In this document: positions 8,627 to 52,702 of the stretch, piece by piece
Position numbering within the stretch: position 1 is the first letter of the stretch
How the letters are laid out: every line of letters starts with the position of its first letter
Translations under genes and position numbers: made by a program
Origin: Cannabis sativa
Lineage: Eukaryota > Streptophyta > Magnoliopsida > Rosales > Cannabaceae
Length of the DNA: 64,000 bases
Assembly (NCBI RefSeq): GCF_029168945.1
Contig: NC_083610.1
Coordinates: 74,639,580 to 74,703,579 of the forward strand
Direction: 5' to 3'
Notes under the pieces: generated by a model
The model's input: only the letters and a program-made list of their open reading frames with translations
Told to the model about the DNA's origin: nothing
Database searches by the model: none

Positions 8627-9002
8627 CAACTCTTAAAAAACTTTCGAAAGTTAAAAAATATTTAAAGGAGGAGTTTGAGATAAAAAAATCTTGGAACAAT
8701 AAAATTTTGTCTTGTTTACAATCAGAGCATTAAAAGATGAGATCTTTTTATTCATTAATTAATCCATGTTGAATTTAAAATTACTTTATATGTAAATATG
8801 ACATTCATTAAGTAGCCCAATAGTTAAATCACTCGTGGCTCGAAAGATATAGTTTTGCTCCAATGTCCTGCTTTGGCGAGTCAAGTCGGAGTCTTACCGG
8901 CTTTGCTCCGCCGATTGATATATAACACTTGATAAGATTTAAGAGGTATTGTTCCCTGATTTGATCTTTTAATACCATCTTCTTCATATATTATTTTCAA
9001 AA
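8627..9002. repeat. Distal end of the duplicated block, copy A
   Basis: This stretch matches 39833-40207 closely, up to the shared TTATTTTCAAAAG. After that the two copies have nothing in common, so 9002 and 40207 mark the 3' breakpoint of the duplicated segment. Within it, 8811-8923 is less AT-rich than its surroundings and has no recognised identity. No coding sequence was seen. Confidence 0.75.
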
Positions 9003-9194
9003 GATAAAATAGATGAATTTGTGATCATGTGTATTTATATATAGAATATGTCTATGGTAGAAATTATTGCTTTGTCTCTACCATAGGAATGCAGCCTTAG
9101 ATGATAAATCTAATGATTATAAATAAGTTTGTGTATACTAATTGTTAGCATTATAACACATTAGAGAAGGAGAAGAAGAAAACTGGGGTTAGTG
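9003..9194. other. Copy-A-specific flank with hairpin and long inverted-repeat arm
   Basis: Holds a perfect 10 bp palindromic pair (CTATGGTAGA with TCTACCATAG) separated by about 15 bases near 9050-9087, as seen at MITE ends. It is followed at 9112-9151 by a 40 bp arm found inverted at 14089-14128 (38 of 40 identical). No gene was seen. Confidence 0.5.
9112..9151 (+). repeat. 40 bp inverted-repeat arm (left)
   Basis: The reverse complement of 14089-14128 differs from this arm at two of 40 positions (core TAAGTTTGTGTATACTAA). The arms are 4.9 kb apart and enclose the LINE remnant, the nested TIR elements and the ABC-transporter fragment. They may be the ends of a larger element. No target duplication could be recognised outside the arms. 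Confidence 0.7.
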
Positions 9195-10915
9195 GAATGG
9201 CAAATTTTTCTTTAAAACTGGTAAAGAAACCCTAATTAAGATTGTGGTTCAGGATGTTCCTTCGTATGCCATGTCATGTTTCAAACTACTTGTGGCCACT
9301 TGTAAAAGTCTTGAGAGCCTTATGGCTAGCTTCTGGTGGGGGCAGCTAACAAGAAAGGAAAAATTCATTGGAAGGGTGGTTAAAGTTTTGTGATTTTAAG
9401 TTCTTTGGGGGTCTGGGGTTTAGATTTATTCACCATCATAATCAAGCCATGCTTGCAAAATAGGCTTAAAGAGTTATGTCCAATCCCTCTTCTCCCTTGT
9501 CTATACTTTTAAAGACTGAATACTTGAAACGAAATGACTTCCTCGCTGCTTCAAAAGGCCGCTACTCCTTGGCCACTTGGAGGAGTCTTCTTTGGGGAAG
9601 GGATCTGCTTCTCAAGGGCCTTTTTTGAAAAGTGGGCAATGGTAAATCTGTTTTTGCAGTCAATTCAAATTGATCCCTCATTTGAAATCCTTCAATTTTC
9701 TGAATGGTCTTCCCTCTCATGCCCTTATTGTGTCTTTTTTTTTATTAATGAGAGTGGATGTTGGGATATCACTAAACTTAATCTTTTCTTTCCTCCAGAT
9801 GTTGTGGATGCTATCCTTCAAGTCTTAATTGATCTTTTTTCTGCTGATAGTCTCATTTGGGGGCATCATTCCTCAGGTATTTTCACCTGGCTAAGTCCTC
9901 TTCCTACTCACCTTCTCCCTCTTCTTCCACTCCCTCATGCTTTAAAAGTTGGTAGAAAACTGTCTAGATATTAAAGATCCCCCCCCCCCCCCCAACTAGG
10001 CATTTTATTTGGAAAACTTCCAATCATGTCCTGCCTTGTGCTTTAAATCACTACAAGAGGAAAGCCTTACATAACCATACATGCTCTCTTTGCTCTTGTA
10101 AAGTGAAAACTATCTCTCATGACCTCTTAGAGTGTTCCAATGCTAGATCTGTGTGGAGAAAGTCTTCTTTTAAAAAAATTTATCTTGCAAATGTTAATTG
10201 TGATATTAAGGAGTTTTTTCTTCGAGATTTTGAGAGTTTGCAGAAAGAGAAGTTAGGTCTATTTTTTGAAATTATGTGGATGATTTGGATTAAAAAATGC
10301 TTATTTGTTTCAAAATAGAACGACATGCTGCACAGATATAGAAAACTGTGTTTTTGGTTTGCTGCAAGATTACTTGGAGCCCAAATGGAGCCCTTTTGCA
10401 ACAATAACTACTCAGCAGGGAGAGTCATAACATTTTGAACAAGTCAGTGAGAAAAGTGCTTTTCTGTTCGAGACTACCTTCCTCAGATTGTTACAAGTTA
10501 AACACAAATGTTGCCTTGGATGAAAAGAGAAGAAAAATTAGTATGGGAGCTATTATTAGAGACTGTAACAACATTGTGGTTGTAGGTTTTTCCTCTCCAA
10601 AGGTAGGAGCATTCTCTCCCATTTATGCAGAAGCTCATGCCCTTTATCAAGTGATGCTTTGGTGCTCTATAGCGTGTTTGTTGATTACTCTGATAGAGGT
10701 AGATTATCTTCAGCTAGCCACAAAGATCAAGCATAAATAGAAAAATTGTTCCTCGCTTTCAAATTTGGTGTTCAAGATTGTTGAGTCCCTGTCTTTATTT
10801 TCTAATTTGTCTCTGTATTATGTACCTAGAAGTGTGAATATTTTGGGGCATAATTTTAACTAGAAATTCATTAGGCTAGATGAGAATCTGGTTTGGAGGA
10901 AAATTCTTTCAAACT
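9195..10915 (+). pseudogene. LINE (non-LTR retrotransposon) ORF2 3' remnant
   Basis: Interrupted frames reproduce the C-terminal part of plant L1-type ORF2. First comes a reverse-transcriptase thumb/connection region (9210-9450: KTGKETL, then YAMSCFKL, then SFWWG). A zinc-binding RVT-like region follows (9530-10180: TWRSLLWGRDLL by frame switching, then WKVGNG). An RNase H region comes last (10480-10910: GAIIRDCNN, VVVGFSSPK, IYAEAHALYQ, then YVPRSVNILGHN-like text and LVWRKIL). Several frameshifts and stops separate these blocks, and the polymerase core is missing on the 5' side, so it is a dead 5'-truncated copy. A run of about 15 C residues sits at 9979-9993. Confidence 0.8.
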
Positions 10916-29700: not shown

Positions 29701-32700
29701 GTTGAAGAATTATTATCTACATGCACAAAGCTTTTGCAAATGAAAGAACCTCTAGCTTTTCCAGTTCGAGATTTGCTGGCAATGATGTGTTCCCAAAATG
29801 ATGGTCAATATAGGTCAAATATTGTATCATTTATTGTGGACAGAGTAAAGGAGTGTAGTTTGACTGCTGAGGGTGGAAATGGCACCATGTTATCTGCTCT
29901 TTTCCATGTTCTTGCTTTAATTTTTCAAGATGATGTGGCAGCACGAGAAGTTGCCTCAAAGAGTGGTCTGGTAAAAGTTGCCTCAGATCTGCTTTCTCAA
30001 TGGGAATCTGGTTTAGATAGTAGGTTGAAGTGTCAAGTACCAAAGTGGGTTACAACAGCTTTTCTTTCTATTGATCGGCTGTTGCAGGTTGATCAAAAAT
30101 TAAATTCAGAAATTTCAGAGCAGTTGAAAAAGGATGGTATTAGCGGTCAGCATGGGTCCATTAACATTGATGAGGATAAGCAGAACAAGTTTCAGTCTGC
30201 ATTGGGAGTATCTTCTAAGTATATAGAAATGAAGGAACAGAAACAGTTGATTGAGATTGCATGTGCTTGTATTAAGAACCAGCTTCCGTCTGAAACAATG
30301 CATGCTGTTTTGCAGCTATGCGCTACTCTTACCAGAACACATTCTGTAGCTGTTTGTTTTCTTGATGCTGGAGGTTTAAGTTTACTGCTATCACTGCCAA
30401 CTAGTAGCCTCTTTCCTGGGTTTGACAATATTGCTGCTACAATCATTCGTCATGTCTTGGAAGATCCTCAAACACTTCAGCAGGCTATGGAATTTGAGAT
30501 AAGGCATAGCCTTGTCGCTGCTGCAAACAGGCACTCAAATGGAAGAGTTTCTCCTCGCAATTTTCTATCAAGTTTAAGTTCTGCCATTTCCCGTGATCCT
30601 GTGATTTTTATGCGTGCATCTCAGTCTGTTTGCCAAGTGGAGATGGTTGGTGAAAGGCCATATGTTGTATTATTAAAGGATCGTGACAAGGATAAAAGCA
30701 AAGAGAAGGATAAATCTGTGGAGAAAGAAAAACTCATTCTTAGTGATGGGAAGAATGCTTTGGGTAATATAAATACAGCGAGTTCTGGCAATGGGAATGG
30801 CAAAGTTAATGATTCAAATATAAAAAGTGTCAAAGCCCATAGAAAATATCCTCAGAGTTTTGTCAATGTGATTGAGCTTCTTTTGGATTATGTGTGCGCT
30901 TATGTACTTCCCTTGGAAGATGACATAGTCACAGATGTACCTCTTGATAACCCATCAGTAACAGATATGGACATCGATGTTGCTGCTGTTAAAGGAAAAG
31001 GAAAAGCAATTGCTACTGCTTCTGAAGATAAAGAAACCAGCAACAAGGAAGCTTCTGCATCTCTTGCTAAGGTTGTATTTGTTTTGAAGCTTCTGACAGA
31101 GATTTTATTGATGTATGCTTCCTCAGCTCATGTTTTGCTTCGAAGAGATGTTGAAGTTAGCACATCTAGGGGTTCCCATCATAAGGGTTTAACTTCCATA
31201 TGCACTGGTGGAATATTTCATCACATCCTTCTTAAGTTTCTCCCATATGCTCGTTGTGCAAAAAAGGAAAAAAGAGCTGATGGTGATTGGAGGCACAAAC
31301 TGGCAAGCAGAGCTAGTCAATTTTTAGTGGCAGCATGTGTTCGTTCTTCTGAGGCAAGGAAAAGAGTTTTTACAGAGATTGGTCACATTTTTATTGACTT
31401 TGTAGGCTCAGGTAATGGTTATAGGTCACCCAACAATAGCATACAGGCTTTCATTGATCTGCTCAATGATGTTTTGGCTGCCCGTACACCTACTGGTTCA
31501 TATATATCAACAGAAGCTGCTGCTACCTTTATAGATGTTGGTCTAGTTGGTTCATTGACCCGAACTCTCAAAGTGTTGGACCTGGACCATGTTGACTCAC
31601 CTAAAGTTGTTACATGTCTTATCAAGGCTCTGGAGGTTGTCAGTAAAGAACATGTCCATTCTACTGATTCCAGTGCAGTAAAGAGTGATATTAATGCTAA
31701 GCACCCTGATGAAAGTCAATCTGGGAGGGCAGATAATGTTGGTAACTCATCCCAATCAATGGATGCGGTTTCTCAATCCTTGTATGATTCTGTGCCTCCA
31801 GAGCACATTGAGACTTATAATACTGTGCAGTCCTTTGCTGGCTCTGAGGCTGTGACAGATGATATGGATCATGACCAAGATCTTGTAGGTTTTGCTCCCA
31901 CCACTGAAGATGATTTTATGCATGAAAATTCTGAAGATGTCAGGGGTCTTGAAAATGGCATTGACATAAGGTTTGAAATTCAACCTCATGTGCAAGAAAA
32001 TCTTGATGAAGATGAGGAGGAAGACGACGATGATGACGATGACGATGATGATGATGAAGAGATGTCTGGGGATGATGGAGATGAAGTAGATGAAGATGAA
32101 GATGAGGATGATGAGGAGCATAATGACATGGAAGATGAAGTCCATCACTTGCCACATCCCGACACTGATCAAGATGATCATGAGATTGATGATGATGAAT
32201 TTGATGAGGAAGTGTTGGATGAAGATGAAGAAGATGATGAGGACGATGAAGATGGAGTTATACTGAGGCTGGAAGAGGGCATCAATGGGATTAATGTGTT
32301 TGACCATATTGAGGTTTTTGGTAGAGATGACAATTTTCCCAATGAAACTCTCCATGTGATGCCTGTAGAAGTTTTTGGTTCTAGACGTCAAGGGCGCACT
32401 ACTTCCATTTACAGTCTTTTGGGCAGAACAGGCGAGAATGCTGCTCCATCACAACACCCTCTTTTGGTGGGGCCATCACTGCACCCAACCCCTCCTAGGC
32501 AATCAGGTACTTTTTTTTTTCTTAAATAAAAATCATTGTTCTTGGAAATCTGACTTGATTTTGGCATTAACCTAATTTATTCTCTCTTAAAATAAAGAAT
32601 TTTATCTGCTTTCTAAATAAAAGTATCTTTTATTTTTTTTTAAATAATGAAATTATTTCACGTTACTCCCCCCTCTAAAGAAATTATTTGTTTTACCTCA

Positions 32701-35700
32701 ATTGCTTTTTGATGCTGAAAATTCAATATTTCAGAGCTTGCTCGTGATGTGGTCACTCCAGATAGGAATTTGGACAACACCTCATCCCAACTTGATGCAA
32801 TTTTTCGATCGCTGAGAAATGGTCGCCATGGACACCGCCTAAACTTGTGGATGGATGATCACCAGCAAGGTGGTGGATCAAATGCAGGTGTAGTACCCCA
32901 AGGCCTTGAGGAGTTGCTTGTTTCCCAATTAAGGCGACCTACCCTTGACAAGACTTCAGGTCAGGGCACATTAGGACCTCAAAACAAAGATGAAGTTCAG
33001 TTACAAGAATCAGAAGAAATAGCGAGACCTGAAAACTCTGTTGAGAATAATGTGGATGATGAAAGTCGAGATGTGCCTGCTATAAGTACTGATACTTCTA
33101 GAAATGCTACTGTGAGACCTGCTGCAAGTGAATCTCTACAAGCAGCAGATTTGCCTAGTTCACAATCACAATCTGTTGAGATGCAGTTTGAACATAATGA
33201 TGCAACTGTACGGGATGTAGAAGCTATTAGCCAAGAAAGTGGTGGGAGTGGGGCAACTTTAGGAGAGAGTCTTCGAAGCCTTGATGTTGAAATTGGAAGT
33301 GCTGACGGCCATGATGATGGTGGAGAGAGGCAGGTTGCTTCAGATAGAATACTATTGGGGGATCCACATTCAGCTCGCACAAGAAGAACAAATGTTTCAT
33401 TTGGAAACTCTTCAACTGTTAGTGCAAGAGATGTGTCCCTGCATAGTGTAATTGAAGTTTCAGAAAATTCTAGCCGAGAAGCAGAGCAGGATAGTTCAAC
33501 TACAGAGCAGCAAATAAACAGTGATGCTGGTTCTAGTGCAATTGACCCTGCATTCTTGGATGCTCTTCCTGAGGAGCTGCGAGCAGAAGTCCTATCAGCT
33601 CAGCAGGCTCAGGCAGCTCCTCCTTCCACTGTTGAACCACAAAATGCTGGAGATATTGATCCAGAATTCCTTGCAGCCCTTCCCCCTGACATTCGAGCTG
33701 AAGTTCTTGCACAACAACAAGCTCAAAGGCTACACCAATCTCAGGAACTGGAGGGTCAACCTGTTGAAATGGACACAGTCTCTATAATTGCTACATTTCC
33801 TTCTGATTTACGGGAAGAGGTTCATTTTCCTTTTTATATTTTCTGTTTTACATATTAATTTACAGTTTCGCTCTGTTGTGAGAAGTAATTGATTGTTTCT
33901 TTTTATTGTTCAGGTGCTTTTAACTTCGTCTGATGCCATAATTTCCAATCTCACACCTGCACTAATTGCAGAGGCAAACATGTTGCGCGAAAGATTTGCT
34001 CATCGTTACAATCGTACTCTGTTTGGTGTATATCCTAGAAACCGTAGAGGTGAAACTTCTAGGCGAGGGGATGGTATAGGTTCTAGCCTGGAAAGAATTG
34101 GGGGCATTGGTCCTCGTAGGACCACAGGAACCAAGGTAGTTGAAGCAGATGGAGTTCCTTTAGTTGATACAGAAGCTTTACATGCAATGATACGGTTACT
34201 TCGTATTGTTCAGGTAAGAATAATGATTCATCACTTCTCTATGCTTTCTTTTTCTCTATGTTGAGAAAACTAATGTATCCAAATTTATGCAGCCATTATA
34301 CAGAGGGCAGCTGCAAAGGCTTCTGTTGAATGTATGTGCTCATAGTGAAACTAGAACTTCTCTTGTGAAAATTCTTATGGATATGCTCATCTTTGAGACA
34401 AGAAAGCCTATGAATCTAGTAGCTGATGCTGAGCCACCTTATCGACTTTATGCTTGCCAAACCAATGTCATGTATTCACGCCCTCAATTCTTTGATGGTG
34501 AGACCTATTTTCTCCAAATGTAGTAAATTGTTTAATATTATAATTTTATTTGTGTAGGGAGTGAACGTAATTATTTGACCTTGATACTCATTTTATAAAT
34601 TTATTTAGTTATTGGAACTTTCCATTGTTTCTTTTGAGAACTTGCATGTGTTATTTTACTATTGCCTGTTACCTGTCTTTTGGGGTCAATTTTCTCATGG
34701 ATTATGGAAGAGTATTTTGTTACTACACAAATAAGTCTAAAGCTCTTCTTGTTTTCTCATCTTTCCCTCATTTCTTAAAGTCTCTGAGAATATTTGTTGA
34801 TACATATTTTTATATATAGTATATACAGTACGGCACTGATTATATGTCAATTTTTTATTATAGGAGTGCCTCCCTTGGTGTCTCGCCGTGTGCTCGAAAC
34901 TCTAACTTATTTAGCCCGAAATCATCCATATGTGGCAAAGATTTTGCTTCAATTTCGGTTGCCTTTCCCTGTCCTACAAGAATCTAAGAACAGTGTTGAT
35001 AAGAAATCTGGCAAAGGTGTGATGGTTGTTGAAGAAAATTGCCAGAATAAAACTGAAAACCAGGATGGATATTTGTGTGCTGTATTGCTTTTGAGCCTCT
35101 TGAATCAGCCTCTTTATCTGAGAAGTATATCACATCTGGAACAGGTGAAAACCCACTAATTTGGAAAGTAGGGATGATACTATTGACATTATAAAAACAT
35201 TAAATTGTTTTGTTTTAGCTTTAATGATTTTTTAAAATTTTATTTCTCCAGTTACTCAACTTATTGGATGTCATCATCGATAAAGCTGAAACCAAGAAGA
35301 GTCTATCTGTTAAATCTGATGCTTCGGTTTCCGAACATCCCTCTGGTCCACAACTTTTGACTTCAGATACTGCGATGAATCCCGAGTCTGGTGGAACTTC
35401 TAATGTTGGTGGTACATCATCTAAGATTGTTGATTTTTCCAGACCCTCAACTTCTGGTGCAGATGATGAATATGACGCTCAAACTGTCCTACTTAGCCTG
35501 CCACAAGCAGAACTTCGGCTTCTTTGCTCCTTGCTTGCTAGAGAAGGGTATGAAATAGATAATGCTTTTAAATTTTTTTCGGAGCAGTTACTAATTATCC
35601 ATGATGATTTCTTATGTTTATTATACTGGTGTCATTTTTATTTTATGACTTGTGTAAGTTCCATAACATTTTTCCTGTTTTTCTTATTATGTCTAGGTGA

Positions 35701-38251
35701 TAAGGCAATATGTATCTTCTCACTCCAGTTTGTCATGTACATTTGGTGTTTGATATTTTGTGTTTACGTTCCAGGTTATCCGATAATGCATACAGTCTTG
35801 TAGCTGAGGTGATAAAAAAGTTGGTGGCAATTGCTCCTACTCATTGTAATCTGTTCATTACTGAGCTTGCAGAAGCTGTTCAGAAATTGACTAAATCTGC
35901 TATGGATGAGTTGCACTTGTTTGGTGAAGCTGTGAAAGCACTCCTCAATACAACATCTTCTGATGGTTCTGCAATTTTAAGAGTCTTGCAGGCGTTGAGC
36001 TCCCTTGTTTCGTCACTGGCCGAGAAAGATAAGGAGGAGAAAGAGAAAGATTTGCAGGTTGTGCATTTGAATGCTCCCCCCCTTTCTCAGGTCTGGGACA
36101 TAAATGCAGCGCTGGAGCCTTTGTGGGTGGAGTTAAGCACTTGCATAAGCAAAATAGAGAGCTATTCGGATTCTAACCCCGATGTCTCAACTTCATTTAA
36201 AGCTTCTTCATCTAAACCATCTGGCATAGCATCTTCACTGCCTGCTGGAACTCATAACATTCTGCCGTACATAGAATCTTTCTTTGTGGTGTGTGAAAAG
36301 TTACATCCTGCAATGCAAGGTCCTGGTCATGACTTCAATATTTCTGTGGTATCCGAGATTGATGATGCCTGCACATCTGCCAACCAGCAGAAGGCCTCGA
36401 GTTCTACTTTGAAAGTTGATGAAAAACACATTGCTTTTGTGAAGTTTTCAGAGAAGCACAGGAAACTGCTTAATGCTTTTGTTCGGCAGAATCCTGGTTT
36501 GCTTGAGAAATCTTTCTCCCTGCTGCTGAAGGTTCCTCGTTTTATCGACTTTGACAACAAGCGTTCTCACTTCAGATCGAAAATTAAGCATCAGCATGAC
36601 CATCACCACAGTCCTTTGAGAATTTCAGTTAGAAGAGCTTATATTCTTGAAGATTCGTATAACCAATTGCGCATGCGATCAACTGATGATTTGAAAGGGA
36701 GGTTGACAGTTCACTTTCAAGGAGAGGAAGGTATTGATGCGGGTGGACTTACAAGGGAGTGGTACCAGCTGCTTTCCAGAGTCATTTTTGACAAGGGAGC
36801 ACTACTGTTCACAACAGTAGGCAACGAATCAACATTTCAGCCCAATCCCAACTCTGTCTACCAAACAGAGCATCTTTCATATTTCAAGTTTGTTGGACGA
36901 GTGGTGAGCACAATGTTTAGTTGATCTTGTTTTCTTCAGCGCTTTTTGACTATTTACGGGCTACAAACTCAGTTCTCTTCTTCTGTTTTACAGGTCGGGA
37001 AAGCACTTTTCGATGGGCAGCTCTTAGATGTCCATTTTACACGATCTTTCTACAAGCATATATTGGGGGTCAAGGTCACTTACCACGACATTGAAGCTAT
37101 TGATCCTGATTACTTTAAAAACCTGAAATGGATGCTTGAGGTATGGTGGATGCCAGAATGTGTATTTGTATTTGCACACCGGTGTTATAGATAAAATAAA
37201 TAACTGGTGTTTCTCTTGTTTGCAGAATGATATCAGTGATGATCTGAACCTTACTTTCAGCATTGATGCTGATGAAGAAAAGCTGATTTTGTATGAAAGG
37301 ACAGAAGTAATGTTCTCTCTCTTCCTTGTTTTTGATCTTGCATAATGTTTGTGTTGGTTCTAACTTTATAAACTTTTTGAAGGTAACGGACTACGAATTG
37401 ATTCCTGGTGGACGGAACATCAAAGTGACGGAAGAGAATAAGCACCAATATGTTGATTTAGTTGCTGAACATCGGCTGACAACAGCCATTCGCCCTCAAA
37501 TAAATGCTTTTATGGAGGGGTTCAATGAATTAATTCATCGGGATCTCATCTCTATTTTCCATGACAAAGAATTAGAACTATTGATCAGTGGGCTTCCAGA
37601 CATCGATTGTAAGTTCCTTTTTTATGAACAGTTCATTGTCTCTTAGATAGAGAGCATAGAAAATCCTAACAAATAATTGTTGTATTGATCTATCTCAGTG
37701 GATGACATGAGGGCAAATACAGAGTATTCTGGATACAGTACTGCCTCTCCTGTTATACAGTGGTTTTGGGAGGTTGCGCAAGGTTTTAGCAAGGAGGATA
37801 AGGCTCGTCTCTTGCAGTTTGTGACTGGAACCTCAAAGGTATTAATTTATAATCTAAAGAACCACGAATGAAGGATCGTTATGAGTTTCGTGTTAATGTA
37901 TTATAACATTTGTCTTTTCAATTTTTTGTACAGGTTCCTTTAGAAGGTTTCAGTGCACTTCAAGGAATATCAGGCTCCCAGAAATTTCAGATACACAAAG
38001 CTTATGGAAGCGCCAATCACTTGCCATCTGCACATACTTGGTACTTCACTATTTTTTTTTTACTACTTTGATCTTGCATAATTTCATGCTTGGATTACTA
38101 CTTTGATTTGTCTCTTAAACATTTTCCTTTTTCATTTTTTTTTTGCAGTTTCAATCAGTTGGATCTACCCGAGTATCCCTCGAAACAACATCTGGAGGAG
38201 AGGTTGCTTCTTGCGATTCACGAGGCAAATGAAGGGTTTGGATTTGGCTAA
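23768..38251 (+). CDS. UPL1/UPL2-like: HECT E3 ubiquitin ligase, UPL1/UPL2 type, copy B (complete)
   Basis: Complete gene of 3,692 residues, close to the length known for Arabidopsis UPL1/UPL2. Exons: 23768-23863, 25392-25487, 25564-25770, 25927-32506, 32735-33819, 33914-34213, 34293-34497, 34864-35144, 35252-35547, 35775-36903, 36994-37140, 37226-37306, 37383-37608, 37699-37838, 37934-38040, 38149-38251. All introns are GT-AG and phases agree. The start ATG lies in a good plant context (GCTATGGCG), and the N-terminus reads [18 protein letters not shown]. Seen in order: armadillo-like N-terminal region (DUF908/DUF913 type); UBA domain about 1305-1345 ([13 protein letters not shown]); UIM about 1350-1368 ([12 protein letters not shown]); acidic tract about 2160-2250; two ubiquitin-binding-like repeats at about 2595 and 2633 (IDPxFLxALP, LRxEVL); HECT domain about 3330-3692 with catalytic Cys 3659, 33 residues from the end. 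In the family this ligase attaches ubiquitin to substrates; Arabidopsis upl3 relatives affect trichomes, but no substrate can be inferred here. Confidence 0.96.
23864..25391 (+). other. Intron 1 of copy B, 1.5 kb
   Basis: The longest intron of the gene. It contains two copies of the word GCTCTGATACC followed by ATGAAGAAAA (about 24298 and 24362) and an AT-rich stretch with repeated AGAAAC/GCAAC words (24770-24900). No inserted gene was seen. Confidence 0.7.
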
Positions 38252-38933
38252 TAACCAAGTGTTTTCAAAGTAGTGAGACAAGATTATATGTATAGTTACT
38301 CTGCTATAAAGAAAGGTTTATGGGAGGAATTGGGTAGCAAAGGTGGAAGGAATATGAGATAATTGAGAGTTTTGAGTTAATACAAACATGTTTATAAACT
38401 GTACAGTCGGTCGTTTTATTGGCAATGGGAAATGCGTCTGGCAGTTTTTTCAATTTGCCAATGCCTTGTTCCGTTTTATTACTTACTATCTTTAATTCTT
38501 TTGTATCCAAATGAAAGTGGATTCACTCACCTCAAATCTTGCACATTACCAATTACTCTAAACATCAATCAATTTAAATCTAAATTTTCATCAAAATTCA
38601 ATGTTTTAGCAGGGCTCAGACACAAAGAAGGCAAATTGGATACGATCTTCTGGTTCACTTTGATATCGATCTGCTTGGATTGTTGCAATTTCAGTGAGAA
38701 TGTCTCTGCACAAGGATTTGTTCAATTATTAGATATTGAGTATGAAGAGACATTCTTTCTAGTGCATTATAATATTTGGTTTGTCTAGCTGTTCATGAAA
38801 AACTAGATAATGGTTTAAGATGTCTAATTATAGTTCAAGTCATTAGGAAATGTCCTCTATTAATTACATGTAGTACAATAGAGTTAGCAAATATTTGCTA
38901 AAAATTGAAAATAATAACAATCCTATTTGCTTA
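38252..38933. other. 3' UTR and 3' flank of copy B
   Basis: Counterpart of 5477-6299. It lacks about 130 bp present in copy A. It ends in TTTGCTTA (38926-38933), the left target duplication of the element that follows. Confidence 0.75.
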
Positions 38934-39752: not shown

Positions 39753-40207
39753 TAGTTTTCATAAGAAGACAAGGTTTTGGGTCTGCTATTATTGTTATAT
39801 ATATTATTGACTTAAATATTATTGGAACACTTAAAAAACTTTGAAAAGTTAAAAAATATTTAAAGGAAGAGTTTGAATGAAAAATCTTGGAACAATAAAA
39901 TTTTGTCTTGTTTACAATCAGAGCATTAAAAGATGAGATCTTTTTATTCATTAATTAATCCATGTTGAATTTAAAATTATTTTATATGTAAATATGACAT
40001 TCATTAAGTAGCCCAATAGTTAAATCACTTGTGGCTCGTAAGATATAGTTTTGCTCCAATGCCCTGCTTTGGCGAGTCAAGTTGGAGTCTTACCGACTTT
40101 GCTCCGCCGATCCATATATAGCACTTGATAAGATTCAAAAGGTATTGTTCTCTAATTTTTGATTTGGTCTTTTAATACCATCTTCTTCATATATTATTTT
40201 CAAAAGA
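39753..40207. repeat. Distal end of the duplicated block, copy B
   Basis: Matches 6300-6371 joined to 8619-9002 of copy A. It ends at the shared TTATTTTCAAAAG; beyond 40207 similarity stops. Non-coding as far as can be seen. Confidence 0.75.
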
Positions 40208-40644: not shown

Positions 40645-42474
40645 TTACCAGTTATTTCTAACATATATCCTTCCTTGAGCATCATTATTGATTATGTTGT
40701 GAAGCTTTTCTGGGAAGTCAACTGGCCGAAAAACGACGTCATGTCCCATAAGATTCATCTTTGCAAGATAATCAGCTGCAGTATTAGTTTCGCGCCATGA
40801 GTGAGATATCTTATACTTGTTAAATTTCTTTAGAAGCTCCCATATTTGGTTCAAACAGGGGATAACCTTCTGACTACTACAGGATTGATGTCTATTAATG
40901 GTATTCACTGCACTCATTGAATCAGACTCAACCCAAATAACTTTAATTCCAAGTCCCGCGGCAAGAACAAGACCTCTCCATATAGCCCATAATTCAACTG
41001 AGAAAACATCATTTCCTGGAGCTTTAGAGACAAAAGCACAAAGTGGTTGCCCATTGTGATCACGAAGCAAACCGCCAATACCAGCAGTTGTCCTGTCTAA
41101 GGATCCATCAGTATTTAGTTTTGTCCAACCAGAATTCGGTTTTTTCCATTTACAAAATATTGGTCTTGCAACTGGATTTAGCAACTTGACCGCAAAATGG
41201 TTAAGATTCTCAATAACACAAGTTTTCTTGATCATTATTGAAGACCTGCCATTCCTTTTGATCTGTTTGTAGAGCGCTAGGTCGTCTTCTTTGGCCTTAT
41301 GCTTCCGCCCCTTGAGGTGTTGGATTAAATTATTTTCGTTTGAAGTTCTTATCAGACAAAGGGCACAGCACCATTCCTTCTGAATGATTGGAATAACAGG
41401 CAAAGCATAATCAGACACAAGCTTTTTCTGCCAAAGACAAAACACAAAAATATTTTCATCAAGCAGTATGTATGAGGTAGTTAATTGTGTACTAATTACT
41501 CTTGAATACTATTTTGCACACTCCTTGGTGCTGAGGCTTCAAATTTGGTTCATCTTTACTTGTAAGAAAACAACACAAATCAAATAGATTACAATTTCAT
41601 TTACTAAAAGAATAAATCAAACTCTATAAGCTCAGAAAAGCCTACCTGCTCAGCAATAAACTTGTCGGGGTTGTGGAGTCCACCATTCGTGATATCTTCT
41701 TCGACCACGGGAACAAAGTGCTCTGGTTCACTTGAAACATAAGGTTCCTCTCTTTTTTCTTCAAACTTCCATATCAGAGAATTCCCCAAAAAAGTTGATC
41801 TAATGAGGTGATTGTAAATGTAACAAGCACCAGCAAAACATTGTACAACTAGGAAAACAGTAATAATACCCTTGGCATAAGGCCAGAAAGGAAGCCTGTA
41901 ATGCAAAGAAGCAAAAATGTTTGATCAGTATGTGACACACACCCGAATTAAGAATAATCTTTCATAATACACACACACACACTCTATCTTCTTCGAAATA
42001 CATATTAGTCGTTATTTGTTAGAGTCACATTGATAATGTGTAGGAATATAATAGCATATGTAAGATGCATGAGTTACTTCTCTCATTGTCAATTAGTTTT
42101 GAGATAGAACCCCATGCATCTTACCATACAGCTCACTTTATTTTACTTTCTCCATCACACTTTCACATTCAAACATAACTAGTTTGAACTTGAAGAAAAT
42201 GTTATTAGCCGAGAATGAACTGTAAAAGAACTTTTTAAGAAAGTTTCCTCCAAAGCCAAAAGCATATCCCCATTTTTTGTTACACAATTCTTTCTTATTT
42301 TAAATTACACTAACATGCAAAATTAAGCTCTAATCTCCAAAGTAAAGCCTTTTTACAACCAACCTGGAATCTGCAATTTTGAAACCCCAGAAAGAAGTAA
42401 AATCTAGAAAATTTTCTTGTAAAGTTAAAGCAGCATTAAAATGCAAGAAATGCTGTTTTGATCCATTTACATTG

Positions 42475-42505
<31 letters not shown>

Positions 42506-43283
42506 TGTTAAATTTAAAGCGAAAATAATATTCTTTGATAGCACACAGCACACAGATTGAAAAAAAAAAATTGTCAAAAAGATTAAACTACTCCATGTTC
42601 CATAAAGAAAGGTATAATCAGCAAGCTAGTTAATTATTTCTTTTTTTTTTTTTAAATAATGATAATATATAAATAAGTTTACCTAGAAAAGATATAAAGT
42701 AAAATGGATAATTTGTTTTTTCCTTTCTTTCTTTGGGTGCATTTCTCATTGTGTTAAGAATAAACTCCAAATCTGTAATTACCATTTCAAAAGCTTTTCA
42801 AGCACTGATTCTGACATTTTAACCAAAGCAAACAGGACCCAGTAAGTAAGGCACTGCTGGTTTTTGAATTCTGACTCACTCTCTATTGCTCGAACTGAAG
42901 CATACCTGTGTAATCACATTGAATTGGAAGGTACAAAAATATAATTGTTATATTATGAACTAAAAATATAAAAGAGAAAAAAAATAGATAAAACCCAGTA
43001 AGCAAAATCAGCATTTCAGAAGAATCATGTGGAAGAAAAAAAATTAATTACTTACAAGGGATAAACCAAAGAAAATGAAGGCCTGCACACCAAAAAAATA
43101 AATTATAAAAGATGAAACTTTTCATAAGAAATGAGAAGAAGAAGAAACCCATGAAAGTATTTTCAGATCACATGGAAAAGAAAGAAAAAGAAAAAAAAAA
43201 AACCCTTAATCAAAGATGATCACATACCAAGAGAAAATAGTAAATAATTTAGATGAAAGCAGGATAAGAACTTCCCAAGCCAT
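40645..43283 (-). CDS. HVA22-like protein fused to a U1-type zinc finger and an RNase H domain
   Basis: Five exons on the minus strand: 43283-43228, 43082-43056, 42905-42783, 41895-41646, 41427-40645. All introns are GT-AG with matching phases, giving 412 residues. Residues about 20-105 are an HVA22/TB2-DP1 domain: SLVYPLYASVRAIES, then CLTYWVL, then LPFWPYAKGIITVFLVVQ with hydrophobic membrane stretches. HVA22 proteins are ER membrane-shaping proteins linked to stress and vesicle traffic. Residues 171-195 form a C2H2 finger of the U1/matrin kind (C173-x2-C176-x12-H189-x5-H195). Residues about 253-375 are an RNase H domain like those of plant LINEs, with candidate catalytic acids D259 (NTDG), E297 (VELW), D321 (ESDS) and D371 (AADYLA) all present. 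No stop or frameshift interrupts it, which suggests a maintained gene rather than a transposon relic. The 27-base exon 2 is supported by the HVA22 motif it completes. Function of the fusion is unknown; separate adjacent transcripts are an alternative. Confidence 0.82.
42473..42501. repeat. (TA)n microsatellite
   Basis: About 13 TA units within the third intron of the HVA22-RNase H gene. Confidence 0.9.
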
Positions 43284-45085
43284 GATTCAATGTCTGTTCA
43301 GTTTTTGGGTCTTTTCTAGAAAAAAATTAAGATAAAATGGATGAATTTGTACAAACTGAGTTGGCATATATAAAGGAAAACTAAGAAAGAAAGAAAGAAG
43401 AAGAGAGAAACATGACATGAGTGAGTGAATCAAAGTTGAAAGACTTTCTGTTTCTTGGAGTTGGAGTTGGAACTGGAACATAGATGGGTATGATTATGTG
43501 TGGCAGCGGTGCATGGTTATAGGGTGTTTCCAAGCGTGTGGACTAAGGTTGTGACTGGAACCTATGAAATTCCAAACGTTTTTTTCTCTTTTTTTCTCGA
43601 TTTCATTTCACCAATGCAAATATGCCAACTCGTGTCTTTTCTCTCTCTCTCAATAAGTATATTTACAACTTGCTAAATTAATGTGTCCAAACATATATGT
43701 GCAATTTTATGTAATCTCCTATTTTAATTTAAGAAATTTTAGCAAAAGAACCATCTTAATTTTTATTTTCGTTGCACTTAATTTTAAAGTTCAAATTTTA
43801 GTAAAAAAACATTCAAAACTACTGTTTTATTTTTTAAAGTGTCGTCCCGACACATCACTATTAAGGTCCATCATGACTACCTTTACCTAATACTAAAAAA
43901 AAAAAAAATATTTTTACTAATTAATTAAATAATTAAAATGAAAATAAAAACTAAATAACAAAATCAAAATAAATCAAAAACTTATTTTTTAGAGCTAGAA
44001 ATTGATGAAGAAGAGAAGAAGAGAATGACAAATAAGATGAAGAAGAAAAGAAGAGAAGAGGAAAGAAAATGGTTCACCTTATTGTGAATTGTTGTTGTCG
44101 ACCTCAAAGAGAGTTATGATGAAGAGCTAGTAGACTAGTGCGAACCCAGGAAATTCGTGATATGCCCCCCCGTATCATGTAAGTTTGCATTTTTCTTCTC
44201 ATTTTTCCACAAGAAGTAATATTTTTTTGTAGTTTTATTTTGATAGCATGAGAGTGGGTGTAATTTTTGAGAATGGTACAACTCTCTTATGTGTGAACAT
44301 GCTGTTGTAGTTAAACTAGACATGCTGAGAAAAATAAGGAGGCTTGAAGATGAACTGTCATCTATGTGGAAAGTTGATGAAATTCCTGATTTGACAAACA
44401 TAGATGGAGCTCACTACAACAAAAGTTTTGATGACAGTAACCCAAGTGTTCTTGTTCTTGAAAATAAAGTAATCAAACTTTTAGATTTGTATTGTAGTTA
44501 TTTTATTTTCATCTGGTTGAAATCATGAACTTATGTAAAAATCAGTTACAATGTAATGAAATAAAGTCAAATATTTGCTCCAATTTTTTATTTGTCAATG
44601 CTGCATAATTGTTTGTTACCAAATAATTTTTTGATTGTGCTCCTGATGTTCACTTAAACCCAAAAGAGAACATTAAAAAGTAGCTCTTTATTTTCACATA
44701 ATCCCATTGTGCATCCTAACACCTAAAACTCCCTAAATTAGCATTCAAAAAAAGAAAAAAGAAGTAGCATATATTACTTACAATTCATACATCCAATACT
44801 CACATAACAAAAAATAAAAAATAAAAAAAATACATTTACAATTCAAAAAGTAAATCAATGGTCTCCTATATTAAGTTGTTGGATTGGAAGACCTTACAAT
44901 TGGAGCTACCTGTGCATGGATCCTGTCCTATTCTCTCTTGCCTCCCTTGCCAACTATTTTTTTTTTCTCTTCCTCATCTTCAAAGTTTTTTAGATGGGTT
45001 TTTGCTTGTGGGCGGCCTCCTTTGTTCTTCTCCACCTAAACATAGTTGTTATGACTTTAGTTTCATTTATTCATAGAAGCAAAGT
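43284..45085. other. 5' flank of the HVA22-type gene and unassigned sequence
   Basis: 43284-43640 should hold the promoter and leader of the minus-strand gene; a purine-rich run at 43382-43412 reads as a CT-rich leader on that strand. 43650-44130 is AT-rich. At 44289-44528 (+) lies a short open frame with CEHAVVVKLDMLRKIRRLED, a look that recalls the coiled segment of GRF-finger transposon-associated proteins. There is no start context or neighbour that supports it as a gene. The remaining sequence is probably the 3' part of the MULE whose transposase lies next to it. Confidence 0.35.
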
Positions 45086-46564
45086 CTAATAAATAGATAG
45101 CAATATGTAAATTAAATACATGTGGTTGTGGGGCCGAATTCTTTGGTTTCTACATTTTGTTTTGGTGTGTCCAGCTTGTTTGCAGTTGGAGCAATGCATA
45201 ACCAGGACGAATCTCCTGTTTTTAGTTGTAGTTGGTGGTGGTGGCTCATCAACTGCTCTCGTTCTCTTCTTTCTAAGTATGCCTTGTAAGTTGTGCTCTC
45301 CTGGAGGGCAAATTGAATTGAGACTTATTTTGGGCCATTTGTCTAGGCTAGGCATAAACAATCATGCCTTCATAAGCAGCTGCAAATGCTGACTTTTGGT
45401 TGTAAGCATGAATATAATCCCATGGATGATGTCCGTAATACGAAATAGTCGCCAAAGTATGTCCATAAGTTATTATAGTCAACTGAAATACTCTGTAACT
45501 GCATGTTTGTTTATCCAAATCAACCATACAACCACCTTTTATGTTCATCCTAACTTCAAACATTAATTCATTGACTCATATTTCTAAACACTGTCGTGAA
45601 ACTTTTTGATGTTGTTTGACAATCTTCACAATAATTATTGTGGACAGTGCATGTTCACTTCAGCACAAATTCTTTTCTCTTGCGAAATCGACACATTAAC
45701 AAAAACTTTATACTCTCTAAAAGAGTAATAATAGGCTTGTCCCTTGCGTCCATAATAGTATGGTTGAAACTTTTACATATGTTGTTGAGTAACATATCAC
45801 ATTTAATCCCCTCTTTAAAATGTGGTTTTGTCCATTCTATTGGTGATTTAGCAGCCAACCATTTGTAAGTAACTAGTTGGTGATTTAGAATGCAAGAGTT
45901 GTTAAAATGTCACATTTAATGACTCTTGCATTCTAGAGTCAAACTCTGCTGGTGTAGTGGCTCCAGCTGCTACCCAAAGCAATTGCAACTCGAGTCTTGG
46001 ATAGTCCTTTTTGAGTTTCCATGCATGTGTCTCACATAAAAGAGACTGCCCAGGGTGTTGAAGATAGACTCCACAACATTTTGGAGACCATTTTTCTAAT
46101 CACTGCACAATGAATGTGCTAGGGTTAGTGGGTGTCAAATCATCCTTCCATAGCTCAAAGAACCATGTCTAGCTGTTAGTTGTCTCTTTTTCTGTAACAA
46201 CAACTATTGAAAATATGTAGATAGTCCCATCTATCCCAACTGTTGCCAACATTACTCTTTTTTAATACCCTTCCATGAAACACCCATCTAAACCTATTAG
46301 TGGTATGTACCCTCTTAAAAATCAATCCTTGCAGGCCTTCACACATATGTATATTCTCTTTCCATCAACTAGGTCACTCTGAAGGTTAGTTGTGCTACCA
46401 AGATTTGTAGCTAACACCTCGTTGCAATGATCCTTTAATATTACAAATTGTTGAGCTATTGACCCCTTTAAATCTGCCTAGAATTTTTTTAGCCCTGTAA
46501 ATTTCCATCCAGTCACCATTAAGTACTTAATGTCCTGTGTCATTTCCTTAAATGTCATGAACTC
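45086..46564 (-). pseudogene. Mutator-like transposase pseudogene (C-terminal half)
   Basis: Read on the minus strand from 46564 downward. The broken frames contain the MULE core: LIGLDGCFMEGY, then MLATVGIDGTIYIF, then ETTNS-TWFFELWKDDL. The C-terminal part follows with AYEGMIVYA-side helices, a SWIM finger region (GGCMVDLDKQTCSYRVFQL) and a CCHC knuckle CSNCKQAGHTKTKC at about 45130-45195. Numerous stops and frameshifts are present, and the N-terminal half is cut off at 46564 by insertion of a Ty3/gypsy element. Confidence 0.75.
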
Positions 46565-48498
46565 TGTAATGACCGCTTAGTTTTAATATTAGAATTAGCA
46601 AATAATTAAGATTTAAGTTCAGAATTAGACTTTTATTTATTATTTATGCAATTATGGAGATATATTACAATTCTAAGTGTTTTAACTATGATGTATGTAA
46701 AATTTTATGATTTTCATATTATATGCCCGGTAATAGTAGAACATGACGTATGACCATAAAGTCACGTAGATATGATTTAGTATCTTATCGGGGTTATGGA
46801 TTATGACCATTTTACCCCTATGTATGTTGATTACTTCATGTTTAAGGATGGGTAATTAAGTCATTTTACCCTAAAATAGACTTATCTTTTTGAATGGGTT
46901 TTTGGGATAAAACCTAAGTTATTTACTTACTAGTTAATGCTAAATATTAAGTTGGTTTTTTTAGCAAACACTTTGAGGATAAATATCATACTTAAGAAAA
47001 ATCAAACCCAACCTACTTTCTCTCACTCTTTGGGTCGATTGCAACAAGAGGCAAGAAATTTAGGGGTTTTCTTGATGAATTATGAGCAAGTTGTCTCAAC
47101 TAGTTGAGGTAAGGCTTTTGCTTCCTTTTATCTTTGTGTTTTTAAGAGAAAAAGTTAGAGTTCATGACTGAATTTCTAGGGCTTTGCTTCTGTACGAGCT
47201 GAATTGTTTTCTTTTCTGCTGATTTTTTTGATGATTTAAATTGTTTTTAAGTTGGTTTGGGTGTTAATTTGGTGAAAGATCAAGTTTTTAGCTTTTAAGT
47301 TCAAACTTAAGTCTTTAATGGCAGATTTGGATTCAGAGATTTATATCTATTTTTATTGCTTAAAATATGTTTATTATGGCCTAATTAGGTGGTTTGGAGA
47401 GTTTAACACTATTTGGGGTAAAATAGAGTTCATGGTAAAGCTTTTAGGGTTTCTTTTAGGGAACTTGTTAATCGCTTCAGGCAGTCATGTAGAACCGGTT
47501 CACTGTTTCCCCAAACAGAACCCTAAGAACTGATTTTCCATTTTGAGAATCTAGTTTACTTGTTCTAGCAATTTTGGAACCCTAGTTTTTCGTGGTTTAG
47601 CAATATTTAGGGTATTGCCATGCTATCTATTGACAGGGTATTTCGTGGTTTACTTCTAGTTTTAATTTTAAGTCTCCAAAAAGTGATTTAGCGTATCACT
47701 TATCAGTTTTACAAATGTTGTGACTTAGGGGCCTGTAAATCATCGAGCAGCAGTTTTCACTCAGGTTGACCGACACACTTGAATTCAGAATCAAGGTAAG
47801 ATTAGAATAATAATATGCATATATAATTACATGTTTAGTGTGCATGTTTATGAATGCCTGTTAGATAACATATTAGTGATGGAAGTATTAATGTACATAG
47901 AGTTACACTAAATATCGACGAATATGTTTGACAAAGTACTGATTGGGGCTATTACATTGGTACAACTAGAGTACCAAGTATAAGATAATATTATGGTCAA
48001 TAGTACTATCGTATGAACGTTCTAGACTCAGTACGCGTGGGACGCGAGATAAGGTTATAATTGGGTGTATGGGTGCCTAGTTATAATCTTGTTTATGTTA
48101 TGTTATGATTATGCTTTTCTTACTCAGTCTGTCGACTCATAAATATTATTTGCATGTGTATGTAAGGACATGGCTAAAGCTAAATAGCAGTGAGCTCGAG
48201 CTAATGAAGATTCTACATATCGAGGCGATTAGACCTAGAGTGTTTGATCTTCAAAGCAACAAGCTTTATTTTGGTAGTCGCTAGGCGACAACTTTTGTAA
48301 CTAAATATTTTGTAAAATAGTTGTATATTTTAAAGATGGGATCCCATGTTATGTAAAATGTTTAATTAATTAGGTTTAAAGTTTAATTAAGAAAATTTTG
48401 AAAATTATCCACGATTTTCAATAAACCGTTGATTAGCAACGGATTGCACAGTTAGTATTTAAATCACGATAACACGCCTAATCTAGTAGGGTGTTATA
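46565..48498 (+). mobile_element. Ty3/gypsy LTR, copy 1 (1.9 kb)
   Basis: Starts TGTAATGACCGC and ends GTGTTATA (expected TTACA, seen intact in copy 2). It is directly followed by a primer-binding site TTTGGTATCAGAGCC matching initiator tRNA-Met usage in plant elements. The left neighbour is MULE sequence. Confidence 0.85.
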
Positions 48499-48765
48499 AT
48501 TTGGTATCAGAGCCACCAGGTTATATTGTCACTATATGTATAATCGTCATTAGAGATAAGCTCGACTCATGTTTTAGTAAGCTTCTTATGCTTTAATAAT
48601 TTGTTTTATTATTAAGTGATAAGAAAAGCCTGAGAAGAAGCATATTAGTAGCATGATAACTGAATAGCCGCATGTTTTATTTTCTCAAGTAAGCGGTAAT
48701 TTAAATTTAATCTTGATCGCGATTTGACCAGGCTAGCTCACTGTTTCGCAGGATTTTCTAATAGA

Positions 48766-49637
48766 ATGGACGCGAGGCGGAACACGAGAAGCCAGGGTAA
48801 TTTGATCGAATCAAGTGGCAGTCAGGGAATTAAATTTTCCCCTAATGTTAGCGATCAAGGCAGAGGCCCAAGAGGTAAAGCACCCGGTCAGAGTGATGTC
48901 AATCCACCGCAGGCTGCCCAGGATTGAGAGAATAGGTTTTTAAAATGCAAGCCAGGATTGATGAGCAAGATGAATAGATTAAGCGTCTGAGATAGCAAGG
49001 TGCTCCTGCAATGCCTTCTTGAAATGCCTACTCCTAAGGTGAAATGGCTCTTGCCCCTGTCATGTAAGTGGGGCTAGTTGCCATTGTCAATTGAATGGAA
49101 CCACTCTATGAAAGGTTATGTAAGTAAGCACCTCCTATCTTTCTAGGAGGTCTGAACATTATGAAAGCCAAGCAATGGCTAATTATTATTACCAAGATTT
49201 TGAATTTTATGGGAGTCACTAGAAATGACAGAGTGGCTTATGCAACGTTCCAATTCTAGGAAGATGCCCTGGTTTCGTGGGACATGGTATCCCTCATCCG
49301 AGATGTCACCGGAATTACTTAGGAAGAATTTCAAGAGTTGTTTAATGCAAAATATTACAATGAGGCAGTTCGTAGTGTCAAGAGAAAAGAATTTACTCAA
49401 TTGACACAAAAAGAAAATATGTCAATTACAGAGAAAATGACACAGTTTGATAGACTGGCTAAGTTGACCTCGAGAATAGTGTCTAACTTTAGTAAGAAAG
49501 AAAAGTATCTGGATGGGTTGAATTCCAAGATTACACATGACCTGATGATTACAACGGATGATGCTACCACTTATGTTAATATGGTGGGAAAAACACTGAG
49601 GGCACAATTGAGTGTATTCAGGAGTCCCAAGGGACTC
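48766..49637 (+). pseudogene. Ty3/gypsy gag fragment (unit 1)
   Basis: Begins MDARRNTRSQGN at 48766, is interrupted by a stop at 48925-48927 and further lesions, and regains the gag core at 49326-49637 (FQELFNAKYYNEAVRS, then FDRLAKLTSRIV, then KYLDGLNSKI). It breaks off at the duplication junction. There is no protease or polymerase in this unit. Confidence 0.8.
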
Positions 49638-52600
49638 ATTGCAATGATCCTTCAATATTACAAATTGTTGAGCTATTGACCCCTTTAAATCTGCATAGAA
49701 TTTTTCATAGCCCTGTAAAATTGCCACTCAGTCACCATTAAGTACTTAATGTCTTGTGTCATTTTCCTTGAATGTCATGAACTCTGTAACGACCGCTTAA
49801 TTTTAATATTAGAATTAGCATATAATTAAGATTTAATTTTAGAATTATTTTATTTATTATTTATGCAATTATGGAGATATATTACAATTCTAGGTGTTAT
49901 GATGTATTTAAAATTTTATGATTTTCATATTATATGCCCGGTAATAGTAGAACATGACGTATGACCTATATAGTCACGTAGATATTTACTTAAGTTATTG
50001 GGATAAAACCTAAGTTATTTACTTACTAGTTAATGCTAAATATTAAGTTGGTTTTTTTAGCAAACACTTTGAGGATAAATATCATACTTAAGAAAAATCA
50101 AACCCAACCTACTTTCTCTCACTCTTTGGGTCGGCTGCAACAAGAGGCAAGAAATTTAGGGGTTTTCTTGATTAATTCTGAGCAAGTTGTCTCAGCTAGT
50201 TGAGGTAAGGCTCTTGCTTCTTTTATCTTTGTGTTTTTAAGAGAAAAAGTTAGAGTTCATGACTGAATTTATAGGGTTTTGCTTATGTACTAGCTGAATT
50301 ATTTTCTTTTTCTGCTGATGTTTTATGATGATTTAAGTTGTTTTTAAGCTGGTTTGGGTGTTAATTTGGTGAAAGATCAAGTTTTTAGCTTTAAAGTTCA
50401 AACTTAAGTCTTTAATGGTAGATTTGGATTCAGAGATTTATATCTATTTTTATTGCTTGAAATATGTTTATTATAGCCTAATTAGGTGGTTTGGAGAGTT
50501 TGGCACTATTTGGGGTAAAGTTGAGTTCATGGTAAAGCTTTTACGGAACTAGTTAATCGGTTCAGTCAGTCCTATAGAACCAGTTAACTATTTCCCCAGA
50601 CGAAACCCTAAAAACCGATTTTCCATTTTGGGAATCTGGTTTACTGGTTCTAGCAATTTTGGAATCCTAGTTTTTTGTGGTGTAGAAATATTTAGGGTAT
50701 TGCCATGCTATCTATTGATAGGGAAACTTCTAGTTTTAATTTTAAGTCTCCGAAAAGTGATTTAGGGTATCACTTATCAGTTTTTCAAATGTTGTGACTT
50801 AGGGGCCTGTAAATCGTCGAGCAGCAATTTTCACTTAGGTGGACCAACACACTTGGATTCAGAATCAAGGTAAGATTAGAATAATAATATGCATATATAA
50901 TTACATGTTTTTGAATGCCTGTTAGATAACATATTAGTAATGGTAGTATTAATGTACGTAGAGTTACACTGAATATCGACGAATATATGTTTGACAAAGT
51001 ACTGATTGGCGCTATCACATTGGTACAACTAGAGTACTAAGTATATGATGATATTATGGTCAATAGTACTATCGTATGAACGTTCTAGACTCAGTACGCG
51101 TGGGACGCGAGATACGGTTATAATTGGGTGTATGGGTGCCTAGTTATAATCTTATTTATGTTATGTTATGATTATGCTTTTCTTACTCAGTCTGTCGACT
51201 CATAAATATTATTTACATGTGTAAATAAGGGCAAGGCTAAAGCTTAACAGCAGTGAGCTCGAGCTAATGAAGATTGTACATATCGAGGCAGTTAGACCTA
51301 GGGTGTTTAATCTTCAAGGCAGGAGGCTTTATTTTGGTAGTCGCTACCTAATAACTTTTGTAACTAAATATTTTGTAAAATAGTTGTAAATTTTAAAGAT
51401 GGGATCCCATGTTATGTAATGTTTTAATTAATTAGGTTTAAAGTTTAATTAAGAAAATTTTGAAAATTATCCACGATATTTCAATAAACCGTTGATTAGC
51501 AACAGATTGCACAATTAGTATTTAAATCACGATAACACGCCTAATCTAGTAGGATGTTACAATTTGGTATCAGAGCCACCAGATTATATTTTGAAGATTG
51601 TCACGATATGTATAATCGTCATTAGAGATAAGCTCGAGTCATGATTTAGTATGCTTTTTATGCTTTAATAGTTTGTTTTATTAGTAAGTGATAAGAAAAT
51701 CCTAATAAGAAGCATATTAGTAGCTTGATAGTTGAATAGGCGCATGTTTTATTTTCTCAAGTAAGCGGTAATTAAAATTTATTCTTGATCGCGATCTAAC
51801 TAGGTTAGCTCACTATTTCGTAGGATGTTCTAATAGAATGGACGCCAGGCAGAACACGAGAAACCAAGATAATTCGATCGAATCAAGTGGCAGTCAGGGA
51901 ATTAAATTTCCCCCTAATGTTAGCGATCGAGGCAGAGGCCCAAGAGATAGAGCACGCGGTCGGAGTGATGTTAATCCACCACAGGCTGCCTAGGATTGGA
52001 AGAATAGGTTTCTGAAATGCAAGCCATGATTAATGAGCAAGATGAAGAAATTCAGCGTCTGAGATAGCAAGGTGCTCCTGGAATGCTTGCTCCTGAGGTG
52101 CAAATGGCTCTTGCCCTTGTCATGTAAGTGGGCCTTGTTGTCGTTGTCAATTGAATGGAACCACTCTATGAAAGGTTGTGTAAGTAAGCACCTTCAGTCT
52201 TTCTAGGAGGTTTGAACATTATGAAGCCAAGCAATGGCTAACTATTATTACCAGGATTTTAAATTTTATGGGAGTTACTAGAAACGACAGAGTGGCTTGT
52301 GCAACGTTCCAATTCTAGGAGGATGCCCTGGTTTGGTGGGACATGGATCCCTCACTCGAGATGTCACCAGAATTACTTGGGAAGAATTTCAATAGTTGTT
52401 TATTGCAAAATATTATAATGAGACAGTTCGTAGTGTTAAGAGAAAATAATTCACGCAATTGACACAAAAGGAAAATATGTCAGTTACAGAGTATACGATA
52501 CAGATTGATAGACTGGCTAAGTTAACCTCGAGAATAGTGTCTAACTTTAGTAAGAAAGAAAAGTATCTGGATGGGTTGAATCCCAAGATTAGACATGACC

Positions 52601-52702
52601 TGATGATTACAACGGATGATGCCACCACTTATGCTAATATGGTGGGAAAAACACTATAAGCTGAGGGCGCAATTGAGTGTATTGAGGAGTCCCAAGGGAC
52701 TC
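49638..52702 (+). repeat. Tandem duplication, unit 2
   Basis: Repeats MULE flank (49638-49784), LTR and gag of unit 1, and then continues into the rest of gag-pol. It is about 150 bp shorter than unit 1, mainly through a deletion in its LTR that removes sequence matching about 46765-46905. Confidence 0.8.
49785..51561 (+). mobile_element. Ty3/gypsy LTR, copy 2
   Basis: Starts TGTAACGACCGC and ends ATGTTACA, so TGTAA/TTACA termini are intact. It is followed by TTTGGTATCAGAGCC (primer-binding site). Compared with copy 1 it carries an internal deletion of about 140 bp and scattered substitutions. Confidence 0.85.

Follow-up and report, generated by a model that had tools for sequence, protein, structure and literature searches.

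A Cannabis sativa gene joining HVA22, C2H2 finger and archaea-like RNase H domains is a member of a family spread among eudicots

Introduction

The HVA22/REEP/Yop1 proteins are hairpin proteins that shape the endoplasmic reticulum (ER), with both ends in the cytosol, and ordinary members end soon after the TB2_DP1_HVA22 domain. Here, we describe a gene within a 64,000-nucleotide (nt) stretch of the Cannabis sativa genome (contig NC_083610.1; hereafter, the window), whose predicted product shares this domain but carries ∼300 further residues with a C2H2 zinc finger and an RNase H nuclease. The architecture is already in databases, two papers on tomato list its domains, and it has been noted in passing in print. 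Six Solanaceae HVA22 members with an RVT-3 domain (SpiHVA22f, SlydHVA22f, StHVA22g, SmHVA22f, CaHVA22g, and NbHVA22g) and twelve with zf-met were placed in one group (PMC9933743; this and all other papers are cited from their available sections). The two lists do not overlap there, and the three-part plan is not stated in words. SlHVA22f is probably a further RVT_3 member, and three similar proteins recovered here (Capsicum P0086, Solanum P0090, and Nicotiana P0111) have all three Pfam domains. In their available sections, the Solanaceae HVA22 papers give domain lists and expression but do not deal with the active site, with the class of RNase H, or with occurrence outside Solanaceae. The corresponding sections on cotton (PMC10025482), REEP proteins (a review; PMC9437294), and soybean (PMC3672674) do not describe the fusion; those on Medicago mention two HVA22-like tandem genes within a multi-finger section (PMC7460785). 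Since the domains are in print and we found no functional study of an HVA22-RNase H fusion among the HVA22 papers listed, the Cannabis gene is a member of a recorded, apparently uncharacterised family.

Among RNases H, an arginine marks the archaea-like type and a histidine the fungal/metazoan type; plants carry the archaea-like type in L1 and Tat elements and also in cellular genes (PMC5348765). The Cannabis domain resembles plant L1 (Ta11), Tat, and archaeal enzymes in its D-E-D-R-D active site and its fold, and differs from eukaryotic RNase H1 by having Arg for His in the active-site set (PMC5348765). Unlike the L1 and Tat domains, it lies outside a reverse transcriptase (RT) polyprotein, is joined to a membrane domain and a finger, and is apparently vertically inherited. 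The plan resembles that of RNase H1, a binding domain plus RNase H, but the binder differs, a C2H2 finger standing in place of the hybrid-binding domain, and a membrane anchor has been added in front.

Results

The gene lies on the minus strand, and its five exons (Table 1) yield a spliced frame of 1239 nt encoding 412 amino acids (aa). All exon borders are GT-AG with consistent phases, and the introns total 1400 nt. Pfam recognized TB2_DP1_HVA22 (73.7 bits; cut-off, 27.2), zf-met (31.2 bits; cut-off, 21.2), and RVT_3 (111 bits; cut-off, 21.6). Homologues align along the entire length of the spliced protein (Parasponia, 69% identity over 100%; Ziziphus, 56% over 100%) and match across the exon junctions, which excludes a chance splice model. 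A first-pass annotation of the sequence had proposed such a three-part fusion, and splicing, domain scores, and full-length homologues bear it out; the finger and RNase H do share the last exon, and the spliced translation places D259, E297, D321, and D371 where the annotation had them. Its U1-type label for the finger holds only as to kind: this is a C2H2 finger of the U1/matrin sort, but Pfam calls it zf-met and returned no zf-U1 model at E ≤ 1, while a zf-C2H2_jaz match fell below the cut-off (17.4 versus 22.6). A TATA-like run at 43364-43373 (minus strand) was seen by eye ∼80 bases 5′ of the start codon.

Table 1. Coordinates of the fusion gene, its domains, and an L1-type remnant in the window
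Feature	Position	Strand	Details
Exon 1	43228..43283	-	Coding, aa 1-19; start codon at 43283; Cannabis protein P0001 begins at the same Met
Exon 2	43056..43082	-	27 nt, aa 19-28; GT-AG borders, phase
Exon 3	42783..42905	-	123 nt, aa 28-69; in frame; absent from public Cannabis model P0001
Exon 4	41646..41895	-	aa 69-152; remaining HVA22 domain and most of the linker
Exon 5	40645..41427	-	783 nt including stop, aa 153-412; linker end, zinc finger, RNase H, conserved C-terminal tail
TB2/DP1/HVA22 domain	41796..43060	-	aa 27-102, split by introns; Pfam PF03134
C2H2 (zf-met) finger	41299..41373	-	aa 171-195; ligands C173, C176, H189, H195; Pfam PF12874
RNase H domain (RVT_3)	40756..41115	-	aa 257-376; active site D259, E297, D321, R364, D371; Pfam PF13456
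Decayed L1-type remnant	9968..10737	+	zf-RVT 9968-10315; partial RVT_3 10408-10737

Whole-protein searches with the window protein (best 120 of 190 matches) and its Nelumbo homologue (best 120 of 189) gave 131 pooled proteins, 111 of which contain the HVA22 and RNase H parts together. A third, length-limited search, for which the RNase H was the only query, gave 49 matches, taken as 48 family pieces and one outsider (P0173; 30% identical); 42 were new, bringing the total to 173 proteins, and none of these 42 has an HVA22 part. The closest protein among the matches listed is Cannabis sativa F8388_012271 (P0001), followed by Humulus isoform X2 (86% over 86%) and the full-length Parasponia protein. 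Named proteins came from Ranunculales (Thalictrum, Coptis, and Kingdonia) and from Nelumbo, Tetracentron, Malania, Daucus, Solanum, Olea, Camellia, Populus, Gossypium, Glycine, Prunus, and Ulmus; all the named ones listed are from what we take to be eudicots (the orders and families used here are likewise assumed), and no search was aimed at monocots. The suspicion that similar architectures exist unnamed in other plants was thus well founded, as plants from Ranunculales through to rosids share the plan, and zf-met is also present in 51 of 57 homologues preselected as annotated with both outer domains. Single proteins depart from the plan: Malania oleifera P0007 has three near-identical tandem finger units ahead of the RNase H, Ipomoea P0110 has an apparent second, imperfect finger (by eye), and Fraxinus P0088, a prediction possibly due to a faulty gene model, lacks the finger and repeats the RNase H start.

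No other part of the protein is as well conserved as the RNase H, whose catalytic set is complete. Column agreement, i.e., the chance that two of the 173 aligned rows agree in a column, was 0.69 for the RNase H, 0.61 for the finger, 0.56 for the tail, 0.53 for the HVA22 part, and 0.23 and 0.36 for the linkers; compared as a pair, the window protein and Thalictrum agreed at 0.61 for the RNase H versus 0.22 for the linker. E297 occurs in all 173 rows, D321 in 172 (one gap), D259 in 171 (two gaps), and D371 in 170 (two gaps, one His), as the annotation's claim of four intact acidic residues would have it. R364, which we add to the active site, is found in 170 (two gaps, one Cys). The full D-E-D-R-D set is present in 167 of the 169 rows that cover all five positions (four of the 173 do not), the exceptions being P0165, with a changed Arg, and the outsider P0173, whose last Asp is His. 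Similarly, 154 of 155 rows covering all four zinc ligands have CCHH (18 of 173 do not cover them). Counting the window protein, the spacing CX2CX12HX5H has a single occurrence in 154 of 174 rows and three in Malania, and it is absent from 19, some of which are fragments. An open frame in one genome, from which domestication had been argued, is no proof of it; the conservation across eudicots does show it, and supports retention of the gene by selection.

Transcript evidence comes from relatives. Among 24 protein clusters with both outer domains from the lgn source (whose nature is not stated), the longest contigs measure 1.4 to 2.3 kb, leaving 197 to 1014 nt outside the frame, and 18 clusters span residue 1 to 410 or 412. 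Because this room is smaller than the intron total of the window gene, we read the contigs as spliced RNA of relatives, not of Cannabis. On this reading, the proposed single transcript finds support in relatives, most of whose short-contig clusters hold the whole frame. For these relatives, two separate genes can be rejected, given the 18 whole-frame clusters and the 111 proteins carrying both parts.

Quick, unrooted trees with several weak branches were built from the window protein and 56 named rows of the 131 proteins, with 57 rows for the finger plus RNase H and 53 for the HVA22 part (four dropped for coverage). Both trees have a branch with Nelumbo and Ranunculales to one side of it, and each of Solanaceae, Apiaceae, Cornales, Fabaceae, and Malvales forms a coherent group. 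Rosales do so for the finger plus RNase H, but the HVA22 tree splits them, and the positions of Malania and Tripterygium differ between the two. The simplest reading of these sequences is a single fusion before the listed eudicots diverged, then vertical inheritance, which would apparently date the fusion back to the time when Ranunculales and Nelumbo parted from the remaining eudicots.

An RNase H fold was predicted confidently for the exon-5 protein, with cellular archaeal enzymes as the best structural matches. With its D-E-D-R-D set and this nearest fold, the domain classes by sequence and model as an archaea-like type 1 RNase H. The LINE ancestry first proposed for it fits insofar as L1 elements carry this class, but plant cellular genes do too, and a LINE origin is not shown. 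Derivation from a plant cellular archaea-like gene, leaving the function of the protein as it is, is a possibility to be taken seriously, if the less probable one. Cellular genes of this class exist beside the L1 and Tat copies (PMC5348765), the best structural matches are cellular, and the second half of the domain matches the NCBIfam archaeal RNase HI model at 33.3 bits, below its cut-off of 140. On the other side stands the decayed L1-type remnant in the window, which aligns to exon 5 with 26% identity over 101 aa (32 bits; one decayed element, pairwise) from upstream of the domain, versus 13.7 bits for Sulfolobus RNase HI (phmmer), the programs being not strictly comparable. This alignment favours L1 kinship without proving it. 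In the remnant, NTN replaces NTD and RVT_3 stops short, so that an RNase H free of constraint has lost the first catalytic Asp, a useful contrast to the fusion, which kept it. Pfam found no RT domain in the fusion protein, where the HVA22 domain and finger precede the RNase H. Only sub-threshold matches came from NCBIfam and none from PHROGs. A profile search of PDB gave 46 weak matches, the best being fingers (SCAPER and a poly(A) polymerase; E from 0.0049), and a search with the single homologue P0003 gave nothing at E ≤ 0.1; matches to alpha-L integrin and ribosomal uL29 were regarded as chance.

Elsewhere in the window, a 5.7-kb segment is duplicated (1-5732 and 32753-38512; 98.3% identity), with smaller matching pieces beyond it (5889-6299 with 38537-38933, and 8619-9004 with 39817-40207). 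Within the second copy lies that part of a large ubiquitin-ligase-like gene which bears the UBM, and a 2244-aa open frame at 25795-32526 (plus strand) has DUF908, DUF913, and UBA domains, which we take to resemble those of UPL1/UPL2-type HECT ubiquitin ligases. A tandem-like repeat occupies 46418-52703 (46898-49638 with 49994-52703; 90.5% identity), and a Retrotrans_gag frame (49323-49676) adjoins or falls within it. Rfam and tRNA scans of the window gave no matches.

Discussion

We consider it moderately probable that an old gene of eudicots, of which the window holds the Cannabis copy, encodes a membrane-tethered RNase H. The N-terminal TB2/DP1/HVA22 helices would be inserted as hairpins in the ER membrane, and a disordered or flexible linker of ∼60 residues would display the RNase H and the C2H2 finger, the latter probably binding double-stranded or hybrid nucleic acid. 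RNases H work by a two-metal-ion mechanism; D259, E297, D321, and D371 would hold the two ions, with R364 nearby, and the archaea-like domain would cut the RNA strand of RNA:DNA hybrids. With HVA22-type topology, the finger and nuclease would face the cytosol, so that the likeliest substrates would be extranuclear hybrids, e.g., those arising from reverse transcription.

Several observations weigh against this reading. The public Cannabis model P0001 equals the window protein minus the 41 exon-3 residues, removed after residue 28, and hence minus about half of the HVA22 domain; exon 3 skipping preserves the frame, so P0001 reflects a genuine isoform or else an error of annotation. Humulus isoform X2 begins inside exon 3, and, judged from these two models, some isoforms may not be membrane-anchored. 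In the full-length model of the Parasponia orthologue, the domains are placed with little confidence (predicted template modelling score, 0.49), and the HVA22 helices are predicted with moderate confidence only. Finger ligands are gapped in 9 to 18 of the 173 rows each, partly in fragments. For SpiHVA22f, the wild-tomato RVT-3 member, WoLF PSORT predicts a nuclear location (PMC9933743). The activity, localisation, and splicing proposed for the Cannabis gene are read from sequence, models, and relatives.

The truncated Cannabis and Humulus models and the SpiHVA22f prediction would also fit a protein acting in the nucleus, e.g., on R-loops, by way of isoforms in which the HVA22 hairpin is not intact. 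We regard this as rather unlikely, as the HVA22 part is conserved well above the linker (0.53 versus 0.23) and stays joined to RNase H in most whole-protein matches. Somewhat more doubtful still is an RNase H fold retained for binding, together with the finger, and devoid of nuclease activity: the finger may be the main nucleic-acid binder, and many RNase H-like folds have lost catalysis, but the four acids and the active-site Arg occupy columns that rank with the best conserved in the domain, and loss looks like the His of P0173 or the NTN that the L1 remnant has for the family NTD. That a gene model wrongly joined two neighbouring genes, or a retroelement piece, is very improbable, because the finger-RNase H-only frames of some records (e.g., P0092 and P0131) and of the length-limited search are expected where frames were called on unspliced DNA or candidates limited in length, whereas both parts recur together in 111 of 131 proteins, in 18 of 24 short-contig clusters, and on an identical plan from Ranunculales to rosids.

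New here are the spread of the family, its probable single descent, the RNase H class, and the intact active site. With conservation highest in the nuclease, a full catalytic set, and a fusion of apparently great age, the idea of a host RNase H seated on a membrane and facing the cytosol becomes a concrete, testable proposal. In a bolder version, which we hold unlikely, eudicots would have built a host RNase H from a captured retroelement domain that, on the cytosolic face of the ER, destroys retrotransposon or pararetrovirus hybrids during cytoplasmic reverse transcription. If true, such an ER-bound enzyme would contradict the published view that the cytoplasm offers no host RNase H (PMC5348765). 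The proposal bears on the control of retroelements and pararetroviruses, on the clearance of cytosolic nucleic acids, and on new functions of ER-shaping proteins.
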